A stretch of 55,542 bases of DNA. It comes from Anaerolineae bacterium. GTDB taxonomy: Bacteria; Chloroflexota; Anaerolineae; Aggregatilineales; Phototrophicaceae. Shown here piece after piece: positions 1-39,048 of the stretch (position 1 is its first letter; every line of letters begins with the position of its first letter). The stretch spans positions 1 to 55,542 of the forward strand of contig JALHQT010000012.1 in the NCBI GenBank assembly GCA_022841825.1, read 5' to 3'. The notes beneath the pieces are model-generated. The model did no database searches and was not told the DNA's origin. It saw nothing but the letters and a program-made list of their open reading frames with translations. A program made the position numbers and the translations under genes.

Positions 1-48
<48 letters not shown>

Positions 49-90
49 TTTTCCAGGCTCTTCTTACTTGGTTCCTTCTCACGCTGCTGT

Positions 91-101
91 TGTTAAGGTG
101 C
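91..101 (-). promoter_or_regulatory. boxA-like antitermination site in the rRNA leader
   Basis: On the minus strand this reads GCACCTTAACA, 9 of 11 matches to the bacterial rRNA boxA consensus GCTCTTTAACA. It sits between the predicted transcription start (about 141) and the 16S 5' end, where NusB/NusE-dependent rRNA antitermination sites are found. Motif and placement are seen; function is inferred. Confidence 0.5.
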
Positions 102-147
102 AAAACGCGCGGCTTGTCTCTTCACAATTCCCGCGCGCGATGTCGTT

Positions 148-176
148 AGGTTATCAGAGGGAATTTAACGTGTCAA
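148..176 (-). promoter_or_regulatory. sigma-70-type promoter of the rRNA operon
   Basis: On the minus strand a perfect -35 TTGACA (171-176) is followed by a 17-nt spacer and a -10 TAACCT (148-153). Transcription would start near 141 and give a leader of about 90 nt before 16S rRNA. The AI-2E family gene ends 17 bp upstream of the -35 box, so this promoter lies in the short gap between the two genes. Confidence 0.7.
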
Positions 177-192
177 TGCCAAAACTGGGGAT

Positions 193-1347
193 TTACCCGA
201 CGAAATTTGAATTGCCCTCAAACTGTTTTCTATCCCGCCCGTGCTCAGGCAGCGACTCGGTGCGAACAGTGCCTTCGATGACCAAAGGTTTATCCCCAAG
301 GACATCCTTTATATAGATCTCCTGGACAAGCACCATAATAATCGCCGTGATTGGCACCGCGAGCATGATGCCCAGGAAGCCCAGGAACGCACCCGCGACG
401 ATCTGTCCGAGCAATATCAGCACTGCGGGCAAATTGATGCTGTCGGCAACCAGCATCGGCGCGACGATCTGGCTCTGTATAAACGACACCCCATAGATGA
501 TGAGCACAATCCACAGAACATTATCCGGTGTTTGGACAATCGCCGCTGCAATCGACGGGATAAGCGCGATAATCGGACCGAAGTTCGGAACGAACGACAA
601 CAAGCCTGCGATAACCCCCAATGCCGCCGCCTGCTCGATCCCCATCACCCCAAGCAGAATGCCAGTTGCCACGCCCACAAATAACATGGACGCCAAGGTC
701 GCTCGCAACCAACCGCGCAGCGTGCTATCCATCCGTGTCACGATGAAGCGCATCCGGTCGCGATACCACAGCGGAAAGAGCCGGATCATCCCCTCCTGAT
801 GCATCGAGGGATCAGCCAGAAAATACAGACTCATGAAGACGATGATCAGGAAGCTGAGAATAGTGCTCGCGACACCTCCGATGACAGGCAGCACCGATGC
901 GCCTAACTGTCCAATCGCCGTCGTAATCTGGTCACTTGCGGAGGCGATAGCCTGCCCCACATCGATCTGCTGTAAGAACGGGAACTGCTGCTGGATTGTC
1001 CCCTCCTCCCAACGCTGCGTCAGCTCACGTATACCCGCTGGGATGGTATCGGTCGCCAGAGTCGTGAATTGATCCACCAACGAATTCACGGACACCGCAA
1101 AAAGCAGCATGATCACCGCAACGATCAGAACAAGTGAAACCAGAATTGCGGCGTTACGTTTCAGTCCCCAACGAATCAACCAGCGGGCTGGCATTGTGAA
1201 GAGAATGACCAGGATGATCGATGCAAGTGTCAGCATCAAAATGCCACGAACATACCACAATGCTGCCAGCACAATACCAACCGTGATCGCGACGAGTACC
1301 CAGCGCGTGGCAGTCCCATAGGGGGACGCGGCAAATGATGGTTGCAT
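193..1347 (-). CDS. AI-2E family transporter (PerM/YdiK-type membrane protein)
   Basis: A polytopic inner-membrane protein of about 384 residues, the usual length for the family. It has two N-terminal hydrophobic helices, a hydrophilic central segment (about residues 90-150), and a C-terminal bundle with the family-typical VPNFGPIIA loop and a helix ending in IMLAVPITAI. Members export autoinducer-2 or act in Na+/H+ exchange, so the substrate cannot be assigned from sequence. I chose ATG at 1347 because AGGAG lies 6 nt upstream; a TTG two codons earlier is possible. It is transcribed alone, toward the rRNA promoter. Confidence 0.85.
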   Translation of the reverse strand: MQPSFAASPYGTATRWVLVAITVGIVLAALWYVRGILMLTLASIILVILFTMPARWLIRWGLKRNAAILVSLVLIVAVIMLLFAVSVNSLVDQFTTLATDTIPAGIRELTQRWEEGTIQQQFPFLQQIDVGQAIASASDQITTAIGQLGASVLPVIGGVASTILSFLIIVFMSLYFLADPSMHQEGMIRLFPLWYRDRMRFIVTRMDSTLRGWLRATLASMLFVGVATGILLGVMGIEQAAALGVIAGLLSFVPNFGPIIALIPSIAAAIVQTPDNVLWIVLIIYGVSFIQSQIVAPMLVADSINLPAVLILLGQIVAGAFLGFLGIMLAVPITAIIMVLVQEIYIKDVLGDKPLVIEGTVRTESLPEHGRDRKQFEGNSNFVG

Positions 1348-1543
1348 GAACAACTCCTGTGTAAATCACCGAACCAGCCTGACCGATGATGTCTATCGAT
1401 CATTCTAACACGCCGACAAGCCAGAGGTGGCGCGCTATACTTATCTTACTTGCGCTAAAGACGAGCGCTACAGAGTGTTGGGTAGTCATGCATATACCTC
1501 CGGCACTTGCGATGCATAACCTCGTGCAGGAAAGTAATCCTCG

Positions 1544-2566
1544 ATGAAATTTGATGTCACCTTGCTCTCGAATGACCTGAATGCGATTGGACAGATCGCC
1601 CAGCAGGTTGAGTCGTACGGATTCGATGCGTTGTGGACAGCAGAAGCCGCGCACAACCCGTTCCTCCCCCTCACCCATGTCGCCGCACATACCCGCCGCC
1701 TCCTCCTCGGCACCGCCATCGCCGTTGCCTTCCCACGCAGCCCGATGGTGACCGCACAGGTCGCCTGGGATCTCGCCGCACAGTCAAAAGGGCGTTTCTT
1801 ACTGGGCTTAGGGACTCAAATCAAGACTCACATCACCAAACGTTTCAGCAGCGAATGGAGCGCTCCCGTTCCCCGCCTGCGCGAATATGTCGAAAGCATG
1901 CGCGCAATCTGGAACACCTGGCAGAATGACGCCCCGCTGCGCTACGTTGGCGAGCACTACAGATTCACGCTCATGACGCCGTTCTTCTCGCCGGGACCCA
2001 TCGAGCATCCCTACATTCCGATCTATCTTTCTGGTGTCGGCGACGGTTTGGCAAGACTGGCGGGCGAAATCGCTCAGGGCTTCCATGTGCACCCTTTTCA
2101 TACCGTGGCGTATCTCAAGCAAACCACCCTCCCGGCAATCGCGGCGGGTGCCGAGAAAGCCGGGCGCACACGAGCCGCCGTCAAGCTGGCGTGCGCCATC
2201 TTCGTCGTCACGGGGCGAAACGCAGACGAAATGACCGAGCACAAGAACGACGTCAAGCGTCAGATCGCCTTCTACGCCAGTACGCCGAGCTATAAACCGG
2301 TGCTCGATGCACACGGCATAGGCGATCTCCAGGAGCGCCTGAGTGGTCTCGCCCGCAAGGGAGACTGGCAAGGCATGGGCGACGCCATTCCAGATGATCT
2401 GCTGGAACAGATTGCGGTCGTCGCACCGATGGATGAGCTGGCGCACGCAGTCAAGGCGCGTTACGATGGCATCTTAGATCGTGTCGGTTACTACTTGCCG
2501 TTTTCGGTCGAACAAGGGGACAAAGCACCCCTTTGGCGCAGCGCAGCGGACGTTTTTACATCCTAA
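1544..2566 (+). CDS. LLM class (F420-dependent-type) oxidoreductase
   Basis: A 340-residue luciferase-like monooxygenase (TIM barrel). It begins with the family start MKFDVTLLSNDL, then YGFDALWTAEAAHNPF and the LAAQSKGRFLLGLGTQ segment that contacts the flavin/deazaflavin phosphate. The overall pattern resembles the F420-dependent subfamily with a conserved PFFSPGPI stretch. These enzymes move hydride between F420H2 or FMNH2 and varied organic substrates; the substrate here is unknown. An M20 peptidase starts 19 bp downstream on the same strand, so they are probably co-transcribed. A second, distinct LLM gene is at 24747. Confidence 0.85.
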   Translation: MKFDVTLLSNDLNAIGQIAQQVESYGFDALWTAEAAHNPFLPLTHVAAHTRRLLLGTAIAVAFPRSPMVTAQVAWDLAAQSKGRFLLGLGTQIKTHITKRFSSEWSAPVPRLREYVESMRAIWNTWQNDAPLRYVGEHYRFTLMTPFFSPGPIEHPYIPIYLSGVGDGLARLAGEIAQGFHVHPFHTVAYLKQTTLPAIAAGAEKAGRTRAAVKLACAIFVVTGRNADEMTEHKNDVKRQIAFYASTPSYKPVLDAHGIGDLQERLSGLARKGDWQGMGDAIPDDLLEQIAVVAPMDELAHAVKARYDGILDRVGYYLPFSVEQGDKAPLWRSAADVFTS

Positions 2567-2585
2567 TTTCTAGACGAGGACGACC

Positions 2586-3953
2586 ATGACAACTCCTTAT
2601 GAATACGCGCAGACTCATAAAGCGCGGTTTGAAGACGAACTGGCAGCGCTCGTGCGCATCCCCAGCGTCAGCACCGATCCCGACCGCGTCGCAGACGTGA
2701 TGGCGGCGGCGCAGTGGCTGGCAGACCATATGCGCCACGTTGGGATTGAGAATGTCGAAGTCATGCCGACGGGAGGGCACCCGGTCGTCTACGGCGATTG
2801 GCTTCATGCGGGTGCAGATGCGCCCACCCTGCTGATCTACGGGCACTACGATGTGCAGCCTGCCGCCATGAGCGATGGCTGGACGAGCGACCCGTTCATC
2901 CCGGTCGTGCGCGATGGCAAGATGTACGCGCGCGGCTCATCGGACGACAAGGGGCAAATGTTCGCCCATCTGAAAGCATTTGAGTCCGTGATGCAGACCG
3001 AGGGCAAGCTGCCCATCAACATCAAGTATCTGATCGAAGGCGAAGAGGAAATCGGCTCGGAACATCTCTACGCATTCGTGGCTGCTCACAAAGAAAAGTT
3101 CAAAGCCGACCTGTGCGCGCTCTCGGATGGTGGTTTCCGCACCAAGGATGAGCCTGCCATCACCTATTCCACACGTGGCATGTCTTACATGCAGTTTGAC
3201 GTCCAAGGACCCGCGCGCGACTTGCACAGCGGTGCCTACGGCGGCGTCGTGCATAACCCCGCGTTGGCGCTGGCGCAGATCATCAGCAAGCTGCACAACG
3301 CAGACAGCAGTGTTGCTGTCCCAGGCTTCTATGACGATGTCATCCAGATGACAACCGAAGAACGCGCCGATCTGGCGAAGCTCGACATGGACGAAGCCGG
3401 GCTGCGCGCGGAGATCGGCATCCCGCAAAGCTGGGGTGAGGAAGGTTACACGCTCTACGAGCGCGTGGGTGCGCGCCCGACGCTGGAAGTCAACGGCTTC
3501 GTCAGCGGCTTCTATGGCGAGGGCAGTAAGACAGTCCTCCCCGCCAAAGCGATGGCGAAGATTAGCTGTCGCCTGGTCGCTAACCAGACTCCCCAGCGCA
3601 TCTACGAGCTGGTCAAAGCGTATGTCGCCAGCATCACGCCCCCTGGCGTGACCTGCGAAGTCAGACTGCTCAACATTGGCGACCCCGCTTACATTGACCG
3701 AAGCCGCGACGAGGTGAAAGCCGCCGAACGCGCCTACGAAAAAGGCTGGGGCAAGCCGCCGATCTTCATGCGCACGGGTGGCACGCTGCCGATTCTCGCC
3801 ACCTTCCGCCGCGAGCTGGGGATCGACTCACTCATGCTGGACTACGGTTTGATCACGGATGGCGCGCATGGACCCGATGAGCACTACGACCTGGAGATGT
3901 TCCACAAGGGGATAGCGACCACCATTGCCTACCTGCACGAGTTCGGCAAGTAG
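2586..3953 (+). CDS. M20 family dipeptidase / amidohydrolase (CNDP-like)
   Basis: A cytosolic zinc peptidase of 455 residues. Metal-binding motif 1 is GHYDVQP (His87, Asp89) with a following SSDDKG (Asp120/121). The catalytic and metal glutamates are in EGEEEIGSEH (about 151-160). A dimerisation ('lid') domain spans about 200-360, and the last metal ligand is in HGPDEHYD near the C-terminus. The architecture matches the carnosinase-like long M20 dipeptidases rather than the shorter ArgE/DapE types. It is followed by a strong hairpin and convergent with the gene at 4036. Confidence 0.9.
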   Translation: MTTPYEYAQTHKARFEDELAALVRIPSVSTDPDRVADVMAAAQWLADHMRHVGIENVEVMPTGGHPVVYGDWLHAGADAPTLLIYGHYDVQPAAMSDGWTSDPFIPVVRDGKMYARGSSDDKGQMFAHLKAFESVMQTEGKLPINIKYLIEGEEEIGSEHLYAFVAAHKEKFKADLCALSDGGFRTKDEPAITYSTRGMSYMQFDVQGPARDLHSGAYGGVVHNPALALAQIISKLHNADSSVAVPGFYDDVIQMTTEERADLAKLDMDEAGLRAEIGIPQSWGEEGYTLYERVGARPTLEVNGFVSGFYGEGSKTVLPAKAMAKISCRLVANQTPQRIYELVKAYVASITPPGVTCEVRLLNIGDPAYIDRSRDEVKAAERAYEKGWGKPPIFMRTGGTLPILATFRRELGIDSLMLDYGLITDGAHGPDEHYDLEMFHKGIATTIAYLHEFGK

Positions 3954-3973
3954 CACTTTAGGTTCAAGAATAC

Positions 3974-4008
3974 ACGGACGAGGCATGCCTGTGGCATGCC
4001 TCGTCCGT
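3974..4008. terminator. Perfect 16-bp hairpin between convergent genes
   Basis: ACGGACGAGGCATGCC is followed by a 3-nt loop and its exact reverse complement (3993-4008). It lies 20 bp after the M20 stop codon and 27 bp from the stop of the convergent gene ending at 4036, so it probably ends transcripts from both sides. There is no strong U-tract on either strand, so it may also act as an mRNA 3' stabiliser. Confidence 0.7.
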
Positions 4009-4035
4009 CAAGATACGAAAACCTACTTCAGTCGC

Positions 4036-5205
4036 TCACCGCAGCCAGGTGGACTCGAACTGACGCCATTCTTCTTCATCAGTCGTGTAATCCGCGTAGA
4101 TGCCTGCCCCACGCACGAACGTCGCCAGTTCGCCCACGTCCTGCATCGCCTGACGCATCCCCGCCGCAGCCGAGGCAATATTCTCCACCGCAGGGTCATG
4201 CCCACGCGGGTCGGCATCCAACGTCGGCATGGCAACGATCAAGGTCGTGGGCATATCCGCGCCCAAAGCTTCAATTGCCGCGATATAGGCATTAACCTGG
4301 TATGCAGTCCACACGCTGTAGTCGCTTGCTTCCGTCAGGCTGCTGTAAAAAGCCATGATCGCGATCTGATCCAAGAGCAGAACGACGCTCTGCTTGAACT
4401 CCAGCGTCCACTCGGTCCCTGGCGCAATCTGCGGTGACGCAGGCACGCTTTCGTCCGACGGATGCAGGTCAGGCAGCACAGCGGCAGCCAGGATGTCGGT
4501 TTCGCCTATCGAGGCACGGACACGGCGCAAGAGCGCGAGGAAGTTGTCGTCATCCGTCAGGATAGGCACGTCAAGAAAGATGCCATCAAATCCATAGTCC
4601 TGAACCGCCGAGCTTGACAACTGTGCGACCTGGGTCTGCACATCCGGGCTGTCGATGCGATAGCCCTGCCCCGCATCCAGCGGGACAGCGATCCAGGCGA
4701 GAAGCTGCACGCCGGGATACGCTGCTTTGAGCTGCGCGGAAAAGGCACGCACACGATCAAAACGATCGGCGTTATTCCACGTCAGGTCTGCCTGCAGCCA
4801 GCTCATCCAGGCATAAACGGTGCCAATCTGCCGACTGCGCAGGCGTTCTGCCAGCGCAGCAACATCTTCGTCAGTGTGCGTCTCCTGAGTCCAGTTTTCG
4901 CCAATCCACAGGGCATTCGGCAGGAGTTCCGGCGCATCATTGCGCACGCGCCCCAACACGAAGACGACAACCGCAATGAACAAGACCGCGCCCACAATCG
5001 AAAACGGCAGGAGCTGGCTGCGAGTCACGGTGAACTTCGGAAGCTTCACCCCACCCGTCGGTGCCAGCTGGGTCGCTGCACGCTTACGGCGAGATTCACG
5101 CGCAACCGGCGTCTGCCCCCGCTCCTGGCGACGCTGCTGAATGCGCTGACGCGCTCGCCCCGGCTCGCGCGGCGGCGGAGGTGGCGGTGAAGACTCAAAA
5201 TCCAT
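4036..5205 (-). CDS. Membrane-anchored TIM-barrel-like protein (possible glycoside hydrolase-like)
   Basis: 389 residues. The N-terminus is cytoplasmic and Pro/Arg-rich (1-60), followed by one transmembrane helix (about 65-86) and an extracytoplasmic domain of about 300 residues. That domain has alternating beta/alpha patterns: VYAWMSWLQ, QLLAWIAVPLD, YGFDGIFLDVPIL, IAIMAFYS. The FDGIFLDV strand-4 pattern resembles GH18-like and related putative glycosidase barrels, but a clear catalytic DxE is not visible, so activity is uncertain. The ATG at 5205 has AAGGAC upstream. It is the last gene of a long operon, 16 bp after dgkA. Confidence 0.6.
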   Translation of the reverse strand: MDFESSPPPPPPREPGRARQRIQQRRQERGQTPVARESRRKRAATQLAPTGGVKLPKFTVTRSQLLPFSIVGAVLFIAVVVFVLGRVRNDAPELLPNALWIGENWTQETHTDEDVAALAERLRSRQIGTVYAWMSWLQADLTWNNADRFDRVRAFSAQLKAAYPGVQLLAWIAVPLDAGQGYRIDSPDVQTQVAQLSSSAVQDYGFDGIFLDVPILTDDDNFLALLRRVRASIGETDILAAAVLPDLHPSDESVPASPQIAPGTEWTLEFKQSVVLLLDQIAIMAFYSSLTEASDYSVWTAYQVNAYIAAIEALGADMPTTLIVAMPTLDADPRGHDPAVENIASAAAGMRQAMQDVGELATFVRGAGIYADYTTDEEEWRQFESTWLR

Positions 5206-24351: not shown

Positions 24352-24750
24352 ATGCCCAATCGCACACGCATCGACACCGGTACACCCTGGGAAAAGATCG
24401 TCGGCTATTCACGCGCGGTTCGCGTCGGCGAGCATGTCTACGTCTCCGGCACGACCGCCAGCGACGAACAAGGCAAGGTCATCGGCATCGGTGACCCCGC
24501 CGCGCAGACGGAGTACATCATCCGCAAGGTCGAGCGCGCGCTGGTCGCCTGTGGCGCAGCGCTCGCCGATGTCGTACGTGTGCGCATGTACGTGACGGAT
24601 ATTGCGCAGTGGGAGGCTGTCGGGCGCAAGCACGGCGAATTCTTCGGCGAGATTCGTCCGGTGACGACGATGGTCGAAGTCAGCAAACTGATCGATCCTG
24701 ACCATCTCGTTGAAATCGAGGTCGAGGCAATTGTCGGATCGGGCGTATGA
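24352..24750 (+). CDS. RidA (YjgF/YER057c/UK114) family enamine/imine deaminase
   Basis: A 132-residue chorismate-mutase-like trimer subunit. The catalytic Arg is in VVRVRMYVTD, with the Glu/Thr pocket residues in PVTTMVEVSKL and a C-terminal EIEVEAIVG. RidA proteins hydrolyse reactive 2-aminoacrylate and related imines. It ends in a 4-bp ATGA overlap with the LLM oxidoreductase. An LLM flavin enzyme paired with a RidA relative also occurs in the Rut pyrimidine pathway, which may hint at a shared substrate. Confidence 0.88.
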   Translation: MPNRTRIDTGTPWEKIVGYSRAVRVGEHVYVSGTTASDEQGKVIGIGDPAAQTEYIIRKVERALVACGAALADVVRVRMYVTDIAQWEAVGRKHGEFFGEIRPVTTMVEVSKLIDPDHLVEIEVEAIVGSGV

Positions 24751-25742
24751 AGTTCAGCCTGCGCTTCAACAACGATCTGCCCGCGCGAGACTACATCGCG
24801 CTTGCGCGGCTTGCCGAGGACATGGGGTTTGATCAGTTCTGGATCAGCGATGATCTGTTTCTGCGCAGCGCGCCTGTGCTGCTGACGGCGGTGGCGGGCG
24901 CGACCACGCGAATCCAGATAGGGACCTGCATTGTCAACCCCTATACGCTCCATCCCGCCGAAATGGCGATGATGGCTGCGACGCTCGACGAACTGAGCGG
25001 CGGGCGATTCCTGCTCGGCGTGGCATCGGGCGCGAGCGAATTCCTCAAGTGGGTCGGCATCCCGGCAGAAAAGCCGCTCACGGCAGTTGTTGAGACGATG
25101 CAGGTTCTGAAGCGTCTTTTCGCGGGCGAGCGCGCACCCTTTGTGGGCAGCTTCGTCCAATGGACGGACGAGGCATACCTGCGCTTTCCTTCACGCCCTG
25201 TCCCGATCTACCTGGGCGCGCTTTCGCCGAAGATGCTCGAAGCACTGGGCGAACACGCCGACGGCGGCTTGCCACTCCTCCTCCCCCCGGAGCACTACAC
25301 GACCGTGCTGCCCTATATCCAGGCGGGCGCTGCGCGCGCCGGACGCTCGCTCGACCAGATTGACCTGGCGGCGTGCATCTGGTGTTCGCTCTCGGACGAC
25401 CGCGACGCGGCGCAAGCTGCGCTTGCCGACAAGATCGCCTACTACGGGCACGCCATGAGCGCGCTGATCTGGGAGCGGCTGGGGCTGACTCAGGACGACT
25501 TTCGCCCCATCGAAAATGCTGTGATGCGCGCGCGCGATTTGGCAAAAGCGCGCGCGCTGGTCACCCCGCAAATGCTGCGCATCGGCGTCGTCGGCACGCC
25601 GTTCGATCTGATCGAGCGCCTGGAACCGCTGGTCGCGCAAGGGGTGCGCCATCTCAGCTTTGGTCCGCCGCTCGGTCCCGATCCCGCCCATGCCATCCGC
25701 CTCATCGGGCAGCACATTATCCCGCACTTCAAGAGAAGTTAA
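24747..25742 (+). CDS. LLM class flavin/F420-dependent oxidoreductase
   Basis: A 331-residue TIM-barrel enzyme: LRFNNDLPARDYIALARLAEDMGFDQFWISDDL, then TTRIQIGTCIVNPYTLHP and LSGGRFLLGVASG for the cofactor phosphate. This is a different subtype from the gene at 1544, closer to the methylene-H4MPT-reductase/F420 group. The ATG overlaps the RidA stop codon. The substrate is unknown. Downstream, about 150 bp without a gene precede the HAD phosphatase. Confidence 0.85.
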   Translation: MKFSLRFNNDLPARDYIALARLAEDMGFDQFWISDDLFLRSAPVLLTAVAGATTRIQIGTCIVNPYTLHPAEMAMMAATLDELSGGRFLLGVASGASEFLKWVGIPAEKPLTAVVETMQVLKRLFAGERAPFVGSFVQWTDEAYLRFPSRPVPIYLGALSPKMLEALGEHADGGLPLLLPPEHYTTVLPYIQAGAARAGRSLDQIDLAACIWCSLSDDRDAAQAALADKIAYYGHAMSALIWERLGLTQDDFRPIENAVMRARDLAKARALVTPQMLRIGVVGTPFDLIERLEPLVAQGVRHLSFGPPLGPDPAHAIRLIGQHIIPHFKRS

Positions 25743-29989: not shown

Positions 29990-30234
29990 GACAGATTCAC
30001 CCTTTTAATGACGCCGAACGCACAGACACACCAGCAATGAAGGCGTGTTTGAATATGGTTGTTAGTCTAGGTGCGCTGCCTTACAGCGAAATAAATGATG
30101 TGAGGATTTTTGCCGCCCACCTTACAAATTTCCGTTCATCTTTATTTTTCCCGCCTAACAAGCAGCCGTTCCGTGCAGAACCTGTAGCCGCAGTGATACA
30201 ATTGTCCCAGTCACGCAATTCCCATGAGGCGATC

Positions 30235-31080
30235 ATGACAAATCCGAAGACTTACCATCGCCCGACCACCCTCCCGGAAGCGGCTCAACTGCTCATGCGC
30301 GCGGATGCTGTTGCAATTTCAGGTGGGGCGCTGCTCCTGAGTGGCATCGACCTGCCTTACGCCCAGGTGATCGACCTGCAGGCACTAACAGAACTTCGCG
30401 GAATCGATCACGTGGAGACCGGTTTCCGCATTGGCGGCGGGGTCACCCTGAGCGAAATCGCCGCGCTGCCCGGGCTGCATCCGGTCTTCCGCCGCGCGCT
30501 GACACGCTGCATCCCGCTCAACATTCGCAATGGCACCAGCCTGCATGACAGCCTGATGCTGCCCGACAGTGCAATGCTGGCAGAATGGTGGGCGGCACTT
30601 GCCGCCCTCGATGCACAGACACATTGGTACACGTACAACAATCAGCGTGTCAGTTTTGGTATCGGCGAGCTGCTGTCCCATTGGGAAGAAGGCGGCGGAA
30701 CGCCAGGCGTCCTGATGCAGATCGACCTGATGATGGCGAAAGGCTACCGCCACGCACTCGGCGCAACCTACGTCGCGCGCACGCCCGCCGACGAACCCAT
30801 CGTCAACGCCGCCATATACCTTCGTCTGGATGCCGAATCGACGATTGACCAGCTCTTCGCTGCGGTGTGCGGCGCATCCAGCGCCCCGATCACGCTGGTT
30901 ACGCTGCCCGTCGATCCCTTTCAGCACATCTCCAAAGTCGATCTCTCCACCCTCGCGGCATCTCTGCCAGCGCAGCTCGAACCCGTTGGCGATTGGCGTG
31001 CCAGCGCGGACTACCGCCGCGAGATGGCGGTCGTCTGCGTCCGCCGCGCGCTGGAAGAATGCATGGAACAAGTAGGATAA
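30235..31080 (+). CDS. CoxM/XdhB-like FAD-subunit homologue with eroded FAD motif
   Basis: 281 residues with the shape of the FAD-binding medium subunit of molybdenum hydroxylases. It keeps TYHRPTTLPEAAQLL, GFRIGGGVTLSEIAALPGLHPV and IRN. However, the pyrophosphate loop that normally reads TxGGN is S-L-H-D-S (Ser102-Ser106), and the N-terminal AGGTDL loop is SGGALL. FAD binding is therefore doubtful. The start is ATG at 30235 with GAGG upstream; the longer frame from 30037 is unsupported. The Mo subunit starts 4 bp after its stop codon, so they are one operon. Confidence 0.75.
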   Translation: MTNPKTYHRPTTLPEAAQLLMRADAVAISGGALLLSGIDLPYAQVIDLQALTELRGIDHVETGFRIGGGVTLSEIAALPGLHPVFRRALTRCIPLNIRNGTSLHDSLMLPDSAMLAEWWAALAALDAQTHWYTYNNQRVSFGIGELLSHWEEGGGTPGVLMQIDLMMAKGYRHALGATYVARTPADEPIVNAAIYLRLDAESTIDQLFAAVCGASSAPITLVTLPVDPFQHISKVDLSTLAASLPAQLEPVGDWRASADYRREMAVVCVRRALEECMEQVG

Positions 31081-31084
31081 AGTC

Positions 31085-34030
31085 ATGCACATCACCATCA
31101 CACTCAACCACGAAAAGCAGACATTCGAGACTGACCCACACGAGCGACTGCTGCGGCTGCTGCGGCGCGCGGGCTGCTGGAGCGTCAAGTTTGGCGATGA
31201 ACATGGCTTGACAGGCGCGGACACCGTGCTGATGGACGGAAAGCCTGTCAACAGCGGCGTCATGCTGGCGGCACAGGCGGACGGGCACGAACTCCTCACG
31301 CTCGAAGGCATCGGCTCGTCTCGCAACCTGCACCCGCTCCAGCAGGCATTCATCGACACAGGTGCCATCCAAAGCGGCTACAACACCCCCGCGCAAATCC
31401 TGTGCGCCTACGCGCTTCTCCAGCACAACCCCAACCCGACCGAAGCCGAAGTCCGCGAGGCGCTGAATGGCGTCCTTGACCGCGAAACAGGCTACACAAA
31501 AGTCGTCGAAGCAGTCCTCCGCGCGGCGGCGGTACTGCGCGGCGAAGCGGTCGAGCCTTATGAGCCGCTTCAGCGCGCTATCCCTGCCCCACCGGGCTTA
31601 TTCGGCGGCGTCTGGGATGTCAGCGATCTCTTCAACGGCGGCGGAAGTTACGGCGGAGATACGGGCGGTACGCGCACCAAACTTGCGCCGCCCCTGGTCG
31701 TCACGCCGCCAGAAGTCGCCGCGCTCAAGACCGTCGGTAAGCCAGAGCCTAAGGTCGATGCCGTCAAGCTGGCGGCGGGCAAACCCGTCTATACCGACGA
31801 CATCGAAATGCGTGGCATGCTGCACGCCGCGCTGCTGACCAGCCCGCACGCCCACGCTCGTATTCGCTCAATCGATACACGCGCTGCGAAAGCGCTGCCC
31901 GGCGTCCATGCAGTACTGACGCATCACGACATTCCTCGCGTGTTGTATGCCAGCGGCGGACAAAGCTACCCCAATCCCAAGCCTTACGATCAGGTCTCAC
32001 TCGATCATGTCGTCCGCCACGTCGGAGACCGCGTTGCCGTCGTCGCGGCAGAGACGCCAGAGATCGCGCGCGAGGCACTGAAGCTGATCGAGGTCGATTA
32101 TGAAGTGCTGCCCGCCGTCTTCGATCCCATCGAGGCGATGCAGCCCGGCGCACCTATCATCCACGCCGACCCCGCCGTCGAAGGCATTCACGACCGCGAG
32201 CGTAACATCGTCCATCACATCCATGCGGAGGCAGGCGACCGTGATGGACAGTGGGCGAAAGCCGTCCACATCTTCGAGGGCGAGTACCGCGTGCATCAGG
32301 TGCAGCAGGCGAGCATCGAGCCGCATGTCGTCGTTACCTGGTGGGATGAAGACGACCGACTAAACATCCGCACCAGCACACAGGTGCCTTTCCATGTCCG
32401 CCGCATGGTCGCGCCGCTGCTCGGCTTGCCTGTCAAGCGCATTCGTGTCATCAAACCGCGCATCGGCGGCGGCTTTGGTGGCAAGCAGGAAATGCTGATT
32501 GAAGACCTGTGCGCGCATCTGACGATGGCGACAGGGCGTCCCGTCCGCTTCGAGTACACTCGCGAGCAGGAATTCACCAGTGCGCGCAGCCGCCACCCGC
32601 AAATCCTGCACTTCAAGACGGGTGTTGATGCGGATGGCAAGGTCGTCGCCGCCGAGCTGTACATCATCGGCAACACAGGCGCATACGGCACGCACGGGCT
32701 GACCGTGCAGATGGTCAGCGGCTTTCGCGGGCTGACGACCTACAACGCGCCCTACAGCAAATTTACCTGCGATGTCGTCTATACCAATATCCCGACGCCA
32801 GGCGCATATCGCGGTTACGGTGCGCCGCAGTCGCTGTTTGCGCTCGAAGTTCACATGGAAGAGATCGCGCACGCGCTCGGCATCGACGTGATCGAGTTCA
32901 AGCGCAGGAACTGGATCAAGCAGGGTGACCCGCTGATCATGGCGGTCGCGCTGGGCGAAGGGCGCGAGGGCAAGCCGCAGATCGTGACGACCAGCGCGCT
33001 GGCGGAGTGCGTCGATATTGGCGCGCGGGCGATAGGGTGGTACGAAAAGCGCGGCATCTCGCGCACGGTCGAAGGCAAGCCACATCTCAAGCGCGGCATC
33101 GGGATGGCGGTCGCCATGCATGGCACTGGCATCGCCGGGCTGGACATGGGCGCGGCGTCGATCAAGCTGAACGACGATGGCTCGTTCAACCTGCTCTTTG
33201 GGGCGACTGACCTGGGCACTGGCGCGGACACCGTGCTGGCGCAGATCGCCGCTGAGACGCTCGGCGTGCCGCTCAACGACATCATCGTTTACGCCGCCGA
33301 TACCGATTTCACGCCCTTCGATACGGGTGCCTACGCCAGCAGCACGACCTACATCAGCGGCGGCGCGGTATTAAAGGCGGCGGAAGACGTGCGTGCGCAA
33401 ATCCTCAAACACGCCGCCGAGCGAATGCTGCACTGCTCGCCCGACGATCTGGAACTGGACGACAAGAAGGTCGTCCACCGCGATGGGCGCTCGGTCACGC
33501 TGGAAGCGGTCGCATTGCACAGCCTGCATCAGGAAAACCAGCATCAGATCATGGCGACCGCCAGCCATATGAGCGAGGTCAGCCCGCCGCCGTTCGCTGC
33601 CCAGTTTGCCGAGGTGGTCGTCGATACCGAAACCGGGCAGGTCACGGTCGAGCGGCTGCTGATGGCGGTCGATTGCGGCGTGGCGATCAACCCGATCACA
33701 GCTTCCGGGCAGGTCGAAGGCGGCATGGTGCAGGCGCTTGGCTACGCCCACTGCGAAGAACTGGCTTACGACGAACGCGGCGTACCGCAATCAACCGACT
33801 TCCATACCTATCACATCTACCGCGCCAGCGAGACGCCCAAGCTGGAATGCATCTTCGTCGAAACCTATGAAGAGACGGGTCCGTATGGCGCGAAAGCAGT
33901 GGCGGAAATCCCGAAGGATGGGGTTGCTCCAGCGCTGGCATCCGCCATTTACGACGCGACAGGCGTCATAATCCGCGCCATCCCGTACACGCCAGAACGG
34001 GTATGGAGCGCTTTGCGCGATAAGCGCTAG
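31085..34030 (+). CDS. Xanthine-dehydrogenase-family Mo-subunit fused to a cysteine-less [2Fe-2S] domain
   Basis: 981 residues: an XDH-type ferredoxin plus [2Fe-2S]-binding region (1-165) joined to the Moco catalytic domain (about 205-980). The catalytic part is intact: PRIGGGFGGKQEM, AYRGYGAPQSL, GATDLGTGADTVLAQ, and the Moco-site glutamate Glu941 in AKAVAEIPKDG. In the N-terminal part none of the eight cluster cysteines remains: their positions are Asp38, Thr43, Asp46, Gly58, Ser97, Asn100, Asp132 and Glu134, while flanking motifs (TVLMDGKPVNS, HPLQQAF, TGYTKVVEAV) are well kept. The two Cys present (31, 107) are at non-ligand positions. Substrate unknown. Confidence 0.9.
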   Translation: MHITITLNHEKQTFETDPHERLLRLLRRAGCWSVKFGDEHGLTGADTVLMDGKPVNSGVMLAAQADGHELLTLEGIGSSRNLHPLQQAFIDTGAIQSGYNTPAQILCAYALLQHNPNPTEAEVREALNGVLDRETGYTKVVEAVLRAAAVLRGEAVEPYEPLQRAIPAPPGLFGGVWDVSDLFNGGGSYGGDTGGTRTKLAPPLVVTPPEVAALKTVGKPEPKVDAVKLAAGKPVYTDDIEMRGMLHAALLTSPHAHARIRSIDTRAAKALPGVHAVLTHHDIPRVLYASGGQSYPNPKPYDQVSLDHVVRHVGDRVAVVAAETPEIAREALKLIEVDYEVLPAVFDPIEAMQPGAPIIHADPAVEGIHDRERNIVHHIHAEAGDRDGQWAKAVHIFEGEYRVHQVQQASIEPHVVVTWWDEDDRLNIRTSTQVPFHVRRMVAPLLGLPVKRIRVIKPRIGGGFGGKQEMLIEDLCAHLTMATGRPVRFEYTREQEFTSARSRHPQILHFKTGVDADGKVVAAELYIIGNTGAYGTHGLTVQMVSGFRGLTTYNAPYSKFTCDVVYTNIPTPGAYRGYGAPQSLFALEVHMEEIAHALGIDVIEFKRRNWIKQGDPLIMAVALGEGREGKPQIVTTSALAECVDIGARAIGWYEKRGISRTVEGKPHLKRGIGMAVAMHGTGIAGLDMGAASIKLNDDGSFNLLFGATDLGTGADTVLAQIAAETLGVPLNDIIVYAADTDFTPFDTGAYASSTTYISGGAVLKAAEDVRAQILKHAAERMLHCSPDDLELDDKKVVHRDGRSVTLEAVALHSLHQENQHQIMATASHMSEVSPPPFAAQFAEVVVDTETGQVTVERLLMAVDCGVAINPITASGQVEGGMVQALGYAHCEELAYDERGVPQSTDFHTYHIYRASETPKLECIFVETYEETGPYGAKAVAEIPKDGVAPALASAIYDATGVIIRAIPYTPERVWSALRDKR

Positions 34031-37950: not shown

Positions 37951-39048
37951 ATGAGCCGGATCTTCATCAACTACCGCCGCCAGGATAGCGAAGGCTATGT
38001 CGGGCGCCTGTACGACCGCCTGTGCGATCACTTCGACAGCAAAGACATCTTCATGGACATCACGGCGATTCGACCGGGTGAAGACTTCGTGAAGACTCTG
38101 GAGGATGCAGTCGCGGAGTGCGATGTCCTGCTCGCCGTCATTGGACCGCAGTGGTTGAGCGTCAGCGACGACCAGGGCAGCAGGCGTATCGACGACGAAC
38201 ATGATTTCGTCCGCATCGAGCTAGCCAGTGCCATCAAGCACAAAAAGGCGATCATTCCGGTGCTGGTCGGCGGCGCGAAAATGCCACTCACCCACGAACT
38301 GCCGGACGATATCGCAGCGCTCACGCGCCGCAACGCCCTGGAACTCAGCCATCAGCGCTTCGCCTATGATGTCGAACAGCTTGCGCCTGCCATCAAGACT
38401 GCCATCGTCCCAGCTAAACCCACAGGCAAGGCGAGCGCGGATAAGGGCGTGCTTCGTGGCAAAATGAAGGCGCTGAAAGCGTTGAAAGACGAACTCTACG
38501 CCGCTGCCGACTCGCCCCTCTATGAGTATCGCAAGGCGAACAACTACTCGCCGGTGCTGGGAGATGGCAACCCGGATGCCAACATCCTGTTCATCGGGCA
38601 GGCACCCGGTGAATATGAAGCGATCCAGGGGCGGGTGTTCATCGGCGCATCAGGCGACATCCTCGACGAGATGCTGGACACCATCGGCATGAAGCGCGAG
38701 GACATCTACATCACCAATCTCGTCCTCGACCGACCGCCGGATAACCGCGACCCCCTGCCGACCGAGATCGAGTATTACGCCAGCTATGTTGATCGCATAA
38801 TCGAAATCATCCGCCCCGGCGTAATCGTGACCCTGGGTCGCTTCGCCATGTTCAACATTCTCAAGAAGTACGATCTGCAGGAGCGCAAGCTCAAGATCAG
38901 CCAGCTTCATGGCAAGCTGCTGACGACGACTGTTGGCGGGGCATCGCTCTACATCCTGCCCCTGTATCATCCAGCCGTCGTCCTCTACAGCACCAGCGAA
39001 CGGGCGACCCTGCGGGCTGATTTTCAGCAGCTCAAGCCCTTCGTTTAG
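37951..39048 (+). CDS. TIR domain fused to a family-4-like uracil-DNA glycosylase
   Basis: 365 residues. 1-155: a bacterial TIR domain with IFINYRRQDSEGYVGRLYDRL, DIFMDITAI, VLLAVIGPQWL, and a conserved Glu90 in FVRIELASAI, where TIR NAD glycohydrolases have the catalytic Glu. 175-365: UDG domain with IGQAPGEYEAIQGRVFIGASG (motif A, Glu to Gln at 217), ITNLV, RPPDNRDPLP and LYHPAVVLY (His340). The four FeS-cluster cysteines of family 4 are replaced by Ala185, Ser188, Asp260 and Tyr276. It ends with a 4-bp overlap with the aspartate kinase gene on the other strand. Confidence 0.9.
   Translation: MSRIFINYRRQDSEGYVGRLYDRLCDHFDSKDIFMDITAIRPGEDFVKTLEDAVAECDVLLAVIGPQWLSVSDDQGSRRIDDEHDFVRIELASAIKHKKAIIPVLVGGAKMPLTHELPDDIAALTRRNALELSHQRFAYDVEQLAPAIKTAIVPAKPTGKASADKGVLRGKMKALKALKDELYAAADSPLYEYRKANNYSPVLGDGNPDANILFIGQAPGEYEAIQGRVFIGASGDILDEMLDTIGMKREDIYITNLVLDRPPDNRDPLPTEIEYYASYVDRIIEIIRPGVIVTLGRFAMFNILKKYDLQERKLKISQLHGKLLTTTVGGASLYILPLYHPAVVLYSTSERATLRADFQQLKPFV

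Follow-up and report, generated by a model that had tools for sequence, protein, structure and literature searches.

Recurrent and selected loss of the iron-sulfur ligand cysteines in XdhD-like molybdenum proteins, including one from an Anaerolineae bacterium

The DNA under study, called the window here, is a stretch of 55,542 nucleotides of an Anaerolineae bacterium (contig JALHQT010000012.1, assembly GCA_022841825.1). It carries a gene pair of the xanthine oxidase family (30235-31080 and 31085-34030), the second gene of which encodes a fused iron-sulfur (FeS) and molybdenum protein without any of the eight cysteines that normally hold two [2Fe-2S] clusters. This loss of cysteines is real, recurrent and selected. 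The chain running from flavin adenine dinucleotide (FAD) through both clusters to molybdenum is a textbook feature of the family, and its ligand-precise, repeated loss around an unchanged molybdenum site means that the chain is dispensable. At a probability of roughly 0.55, the pair would be a functional enzyme working with the molybdenum cofactor (Moco) only, belonging to the XdhD branch of the family and of the purine dehydroxylase type.

Codon reading of the eight ligand positions gave Asp38, Thr43, Asp46, Gly58, Ser97, Asn100, Asp132 and Glu134, exactly the replacements listed earlier by a reader who had the sequence alone (the sequence-only reading). The protein has the fused architecture of Desulfovibrio aldehyde oxidoreductase, with a ferredoxin domain, a helical [2Fe-2S] domain and a two-part molybdenum domain (Table 1). 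Fer2_2, Ald_Xan_dh_C, MoCoBD_1 and MoCoBD_2 were all found above their Pfam cut-offs. The N-terminal ferredoxin domain had no Pfam match even at E values up to 10, and was alignable to the D. gigas aldehyde oxidoreductase (1sij) from residue 4 onward. The family-conserved motifs of the molybdenum site, GGGFGGKQ (461-468), Gln433, Gln876 and the catalytic Glu941 (codon 33905-33907), are intact, and the motif and pocket tables agree with the sequence-only reading on this point as well. By domains and molybdenum-site motifs the protein is a member of the xanthine oxidase family; the eight cysteines are what it lacks. An AlphaFold2 model (mean pLDDT 82.8) superposed on 1sij over residues 1-979 (Z 36.9, rmsd 2.6, 865 aligned), so that the FeS domains are predicted to fold as usual despite the missing ligands. 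Glu134 presumably stands at the place where, in bovine xanthine dehydrogenase (XDH), a ligand cysteine contacts the pterin.

The sequence-only reading had proposed a search for homologues with the same substitutions. A scan of genome contigs confirmed 89 loci, of which 80 were kept; some match was found in all 41 related genomes, and in 25 of them it was more than 55% identical. Rows of 50% identity or less, rows without coverage of the FeS domains and identical copies were dropped, leaving 83 distinct rows with the window included. No ligand cysteine was present in 39 of these; ten rows had one, eight had four and 26 had eight. The four-cysteine rows are without the distal (N-terminal) set and all show D-[ST]-D at its first three positions. 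Cysteine-free rows have an acidic residue at 134, and the replacement residues vary among lineages, with Ala, Gly, Gln and Asn among them. A phylum-wide draw of 301 genomes, from which 29 new loci were kept, yielded further rows of each cysteine class. A single row from this draw (L118, genome G232, contig C133; open reading frame (ORF) 1477-4533, minus strand) has the reverse lesion, with the distal CCCC kept and SDSE at the proximal, Moco-side set.

Other FeS-domain genes at the same loci served as a control. They comprised 26 stretches, two being one gene of the window's genome, which makes 25 genes; 12 further low-cysteine rows were excluded as XdhD-type copies. All eight cysteines were kept in 24 of the 25, and the remaining gene, of Haloarcula, has seven. 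A separate FeS subunit of an XdhD-like pair on Haloarcula marismortui pNG700 (L166:11968-12546), reading CCSCCCCC, lies beside YqeB, YqeC and SelD genes. No replacement FeS subunit was recognised beside the window gene, and the FeS domains near some of its relatives belong to separate XDH. A sequencing error, named by the sequence-only reading as grounds for its refutation, a frameshift and an artefact of assembly were rejected, as the frame is open and the cysteine-free state recurs in many assemblies.

Ratios of non-synonymous to synonymous change (dN/dS) were determined for five close cysteine-free pairs with a synonymous distance below 1, and for five eight-cysteine pairs for comparison. 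In the cysteine-free pairs the distal domain gave 0-0.19, the proximal domain 0.01-0.07 and the molybdenum domain 0.015-0.09; the corresponding ranges in the eight-cysteine pairs were 0.07-0.17, 0.03-0.18 and 0.01-0.18. The iron-sulfur domain is under purifying selection, and a pseudogene was rejected on these values, well below 1, together with the open frame.

The molybdenum pocket was compared between 53 cysteine-free or one-cysteine rows and 47 eight-cysteine rows over window positions 1-977. Just two positions, 97 and 134, were more than 85% fixed within each group yet different between the groups, and each of them is a cluster ligand. Pocket identity is best in the groups nearer to the window: the outermost eight-cysteine group (13 rows, 44-60% identical) varies, with Glu625 in three and Arg576 in six of the 13, and E. 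coli XdhD has Gln at Arg576. Apart from the more varied outermost eight-cysteine group, the pocket does not differ between proteins that can and cannot bind clusters.

A maximum-likelihood tree of the molybdenum domain, made by a quick search, held 130 rows, 122 of which were scored: 49 with both cysteine sets, 51 with neither set complete, 21 with the proximal set only and one with the distal set only. At least nine changes of state were required for the distal set and at least four for the proximal set. Parsimony is itself blind to loss and gain, and the changes are read as losses because outgroups and other family members have eight cysteines. Rows without either set sit in three places. 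One is lineage A, to which the window belongs; another is E. coli XdhD; the third is lineage B, made up of Anaerolineae and Acidimicrobiia, inside which the one-cysteine rows are nested. L017, L018 and L034, the nearest rows with eight cysteines (67-69% identical), group with lineage A and not with lineage B (support 90 and 98). The N-terminal domain of the four-cysteine Anaerolineae group has an identity of 0.549 to that of lineage A, against 0.479 for their eight-cysteine kin, and a 76-column tree of this domain, with 10 starred branches of 115, requires just two changes. Given this small excess and the two-change tree, some of the nine distal changes may reflect N-terminal domains passed from one lineage to another, which would lower the count.

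TIGR03313, the model of E. coli XdhD, was the best NCBIfam model of the window protein (703.3 bits), and the two proteins have about 39% identity over 923 aligned residues. In E. coli K-12 (NC_000913.3) XdhD has none of the eight cysteines either and reads DADSSNSD. This is not a strain oddity: of 5426 E. coli genomes, 5130 contain the xdhD region with an identity of at least 90%, a count of the region, with the cysteines read in K-12. The window pair includes an adjacent YgfM-type subunit, since a profile grown from its FAD-type subunit finds YgfM at 5.9e-42; TIGR03312 was not among the NCBIfam matches of this subunit at E values up to 1. The sequence-only reading had stated that no characterised example was known, and here it was mistaken. 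In the work of Li et al. (2025, PMC12507026), E. coli XdhD was purified together with a presumed YgfM, and with NADH the preparation converted urate to 2,8-dioxopurine (yanthine), so that XdhD is a characterised example, although in the literature searched it is not described as cluster-free. In the model of these authors electrons enter at a FAD bound in YgfM, with delivery from NADH to FAD assumed (PMC12507026). The word 'cysteine' is absent from the main text of their paper and the Fe-S reconstitution in it concerns YgfK; its assay methods describe no XdhD run without NADH, and a general remark on controls names enzyme and substrate (PMC12507026). Five RefSeq rows label XdhD as 'Mo/Fe-S-binding subunit', and the missing ligands went unmentioned in the literature searched, with subscription papers, such as a Clostridium sporogenes study, and supplements outside its scope. 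According to a commentary, the physiological electron donor of the clostridial counterpart is still open (PMC12990295).

The gene upstream of the molybdenum gene encodes a FAD-type subunit (model pLDDT 93.2; best match 1ffv_C, TM 0.78), in which the fold is present and the second FAD loop is lost. The sequence-only reading, right about the lesion, had overlooked this degenerate partner as well as the same loss in E. coli XdhD. A FAD-type homologue was found at 35 of the 39 cysteine-free loci, the four misses having less than 1.5 kb upstream. The second loop is lost in all 17 rows of lineage A; its glycines are kept in 19 of 22 lineage B rows, in YgfM, and in 19 of 19 of the eight-cysteine group, with L067, a truncated separate XDH, counted among these. 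Upstream of nine one-cysteine STAxSSCE loci no FAD-type gene was found, and one of these loci has just 0.6 kb upstream. A separate FAD-type gene lies near one of the 26 eight-cysteine loci of the 83-row survey (L098), and the outer eight-cysteine rows have one. Because most eight-cysteine loci of that survey are also without such a gene, the flavin subunit is not lost in step with the clusters; the order in which these parts went is inferred. A FAD subunit is not universal in the xanthine oxidase family, Desulfovibrio aldehyde oxidoreductase having none. With a dN/dS of 0.14-0.29 in seven pairs (two with a saturated synonymous distance), the FAD-type subunit is under looser constraint; the value between the window and L033 was 0.40 at a synonymous distance of 1.2.

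Four of the nine one-cysteine genes are directly preceded by a dihydroorotate dehydrogenase-like gene (PF01180), in the slot that the FAD subunit takes in other lineages. A role as UacX-type reductase was unsupported, NCBIfam naming the L051 copy a dihydroorotate dehydrogenase-like protein.

Table 1. Features of the gene pair in the window, and dihydroorotate dehydrogenase-like genes at one-cysteine loci.
Feature	Position	Strand	Basis
FAD-type subunit (CO dehydrogenase medium-chain fold), 281 aa from Met67 of ORF 30037-31080	30235..31080	+	FAD_binding_5, CO_deh_flav_C, motif table, 1ffv_C match
Degenerate second FAD loop NIRNGTSLHDSL replacing the usual TxGG[NT] loop	30520..30555	+	motif table, codons
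XdhD-like fused protein, 981 aa: two cysteine-free FeS domains and molybdenum domain	31085..34030	+	Pfam, model, fold match
N-terminal (distal) ferredoxin domain, residues 1-72; D38, T43, D46, G58	31085..31300	+	1sij alignment, codons, family table
Helical (proximal) [2Fe-2S] domain, residues 73-160; S97, N100, D132, E134	31301..31564	+	Fer2_2 at 72-144, codons
Molybdenum domains, residues 215-977; Q433, GGGFGGKQ 461-468, E625, Q876, E941	31727..34015	+	Ald_Xan_dh_C, MoCoBD_1, MoCoBD_2, pocket table
Dihydroorotate dehydrogenase-like genes	L051:6846-7916, L053:6841-7917, L057:4344-5540, L094:1061-2110		PF01180

As a Moco-only purine dehydroxylase, the window enzyme would bind Moco and deoxygenate an oxidised purine, in the way that E. 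coli XdhD converts urate to 2,8-dioxopurine. Since the protein has no ligands for the usual internal relay, the reductant would have to meet molybdenum at the active site. A small reductant, or else a second substrate, would reach that site and re-reduce molybdenum, the internal FAD-FeS-FeS-Mo chain would be bypassed, and the FeS domain would be retained for packing against the molybdenum domain and the pterin. Both the substrate and the donor of the window enzyme are putative. The normal relative Kdh has spacings of 13.5, 13.8 and 10.8 Å between Moco, the two clusters and FAD, distances below 14 Å being usual (PMC8305194), and the gap without clusters is therefore far above 14 Å. The lesion is found in many genomes, among relatives that have lost either cysteine set alone or both, and E. 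coli XdhD, cysteine-free and active on urate, is counted in favour of this reading, as are the retained fold, the second FAD loop lost throughout lineage A and the gene set around the lineage B locus L093. The recurrent, selected loss and the unchanged pocket also support the proposal of the sequence-only reading that this is a Moco-type protein in which no known ligation would let electrons run through FeS clusters. For the cysteine-free enzymes, E. coli XdhD included, the usual account of electron supply cannot hold.

The purine assignment of the window copy is based on homology, the shared pocket and YqeB. YqeB, of Mo-cofactor maturation, was found in 22 of 25 genomes with an XdhD-like gene versus one of 16 without (Fisher p 1.8e-7, uncorrected for kinship). 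In the window genome XDH, YqeB-, YqeC- and MocA-like genes lie at about 1.086-1.095 Mb of contig C1, so that maturation genes of the type associated with selenium-dependent molybdenum hydroxylases are present, and SsnA with F420 genes lies about 88 kb beyond this region. Several points weigh against the assignment of the pair as a functional XdhD-branch enzyme acting on purines. The score with TIGR03313 is under the curated cut-off of 1101.9. NADH was used in the E. coli assay, and FAD may still play a part in E. coli and lineage B, where the loop glycines are retained. No purine genes or uricolytic neighbourhood were found beside the window gene; some lineage B genes do have such a neighbourhood. 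SsnA as a genome marker showed no association (19 of 25 genomes versus 12 of 16). In genome G003 a uricolytic-type cluster (L148, L149; C9:100000-136000) with XDH, LLM and F420 genes and SsnA-, YgeW-, YgeY- and YqeA-like genes occurs without a YqeB match and without a close XdhD-like gene.

A tentative alternative is an intermolecular hydroxyl transferase, in which the same molybdenum site oxidises one purine and reduces another and no electron leaves the site. In an example of such a reaction, xanthine and urate would give urate and yanthine, so that overall xanthine is isomerised and urate serves as the carrier. Hydroxyl transfer would explain why clusters, FAD loop and flavin subunit are dispensable alongside a retained pocket. 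Oxygen insertion and abstraction in one cycle has been argued for the molybdenum of the xanthine oxidase family, and pyrogallol:phloroglucinol transhydroxylase is a precedent for hydroxyl transfer at molybdenum without net electron flow (PMC10420851); that enzyme is of the dimethyl sulfoxide (DMSO) reductase family, whereas the window protein matches only xanthine oxidase-family molybdenum domains (Pfam, E values up to 10). Yanthine built up in delta-xdhA E. coli in LB with urate, but the simpler reading of the authors is a greater flux through XdhD, and the purified enzyme made yanthine from urate with NADH and without added xanthine (PMC12507026). The NADH assay speaks against hydroxyl transfer unless NADH proves unnecessary. 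It is conceivable, though unlikely, that a xanthine oxidase-type branch including E. coli XdhD has abandoned electron transfer altogether and acts by hydroxyl transfer between purines, separate lineages having dismantled the clusters and the flavin site and, last of all, the flavin subunit.

Doubtful is a conventional NADH-driven reductase, with a YgfM-type FAD reducing molybdenum directly or by an unusual route despite the absent clusters. Such an enzyme would agree with the E. coli assay and the FAD modelled in YgfM (PMC12507026), and with the loop glycines of YgfM and most of lineage B, but the cluster-less gap is very large by the spacing in Kdh (PMC8305194), the loop is lost in lineage A, and the nine one-cysteine loci yielded no FAD-type gene, one of them having 0.6 kb upstream. 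A structural, regulatory or Moco-handling protein without catalysis is improbable: lineage A has indeed lost all electron-transfer sites, yet Glu941 and the pocket are conserved as in the eight-cysteine rows, and E. coli XdhD is active with the same lesion (PMC12507026). There is very little chance that the replacement Asp, Glu, Ser and Thr hold another metal or an unusual cluster; the D-[ST]-D of the four-cysteine rows and the acidic 134 of the cysteine-free rows could be taken that way, but the replacement sets differ by lineage and include Ala, Gly, Gln and Asn. We know of no [2Fe-2S] cluster without any Cys or His ligand. A decaying gene or assembly artefact, for which nothing speaks beyond the missing ligands, is hardly credible given the open frame, the low dN/dS and the same state in many assemblies, and the sequence-only reading rightly dismissed random decay, as purifying selection, recurrence and the intact FeS genes at the same loci agree.

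Among known systems, the Moco-only purine dehydroxylase proposed for the window is most like E. coli XdhD-YgfM (TIGR03313/TIGR03312), which also combines a fused FeS-Mo protein without ligand cysteines at the eight positions with an adjacent FAD-type subunit. The window pair differs in lying outside a purine cluster and in the partner's lost second FAD loop, the glycines of which YgfM keeps. E. coli XdhD, with the same lesion, is an entry enzyme of urate breakdown by gut bacteria, which is relevant to gout. The XdhD homologue of Cetobacterium somerae (L164) is 45% identical to E. coli XdhD yet keeps all eight cysteines, and adjoins genes for a FAD subunit, SsnA, dihydropyrimidinase, YgeY and diaminopropionate lyase, a uricolytic-type cluster. 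Desulfovibrio aldehyde oxidoreductase (1sij, 1dgj), the best structural match, shares the FeS-FeS-Mo fold but, unlike the window protein, has both cysteine sets. The top PDB sequence match of the molybdenum domain is 4-hydroxybenzoyl-CoA reductase (1rm6), which we take to be a reductive dehydroxylase of the same family. It differs in having its FeS subunit as a separate chain (1rm6_C) and an inverted electron flow, described as passing through the clusters.

The neighbours of the window gene are phosphodiester glycosidase, sugar transferase (by ORF reading) and mannosyltransferase-type genes. At a lineage B locus (L093), YgeY, YqeB, YqeC, dihydropyrimidinase and UbiD genes scored above the NCBIfam cut-offs, and SsnA-, XdhC- and F420-LLM-type genes each scored under theirs; this set is close to the description given by Li et al. 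for Chloroflexota (PMC12507026). Eight-cysteine operons, L063 among them, contain CofC, CofD, CofE and F420 reductase genes above cut-off, with an LLM gene upstream and, downstream, a separate XDH. At 24747-25742, some 5 kb ahead of the window pair, lies a gene for a luciferase-like (PF00296) oxidoreductase, 31% identical to the LLM of the L063 operon. At 37951-39048 of the window a TIR domain (PF13676) and a uracil-DNA glycosylase domain (PF03167) are fused in one ORF, an unusual pairing that is perhaps defence-related.

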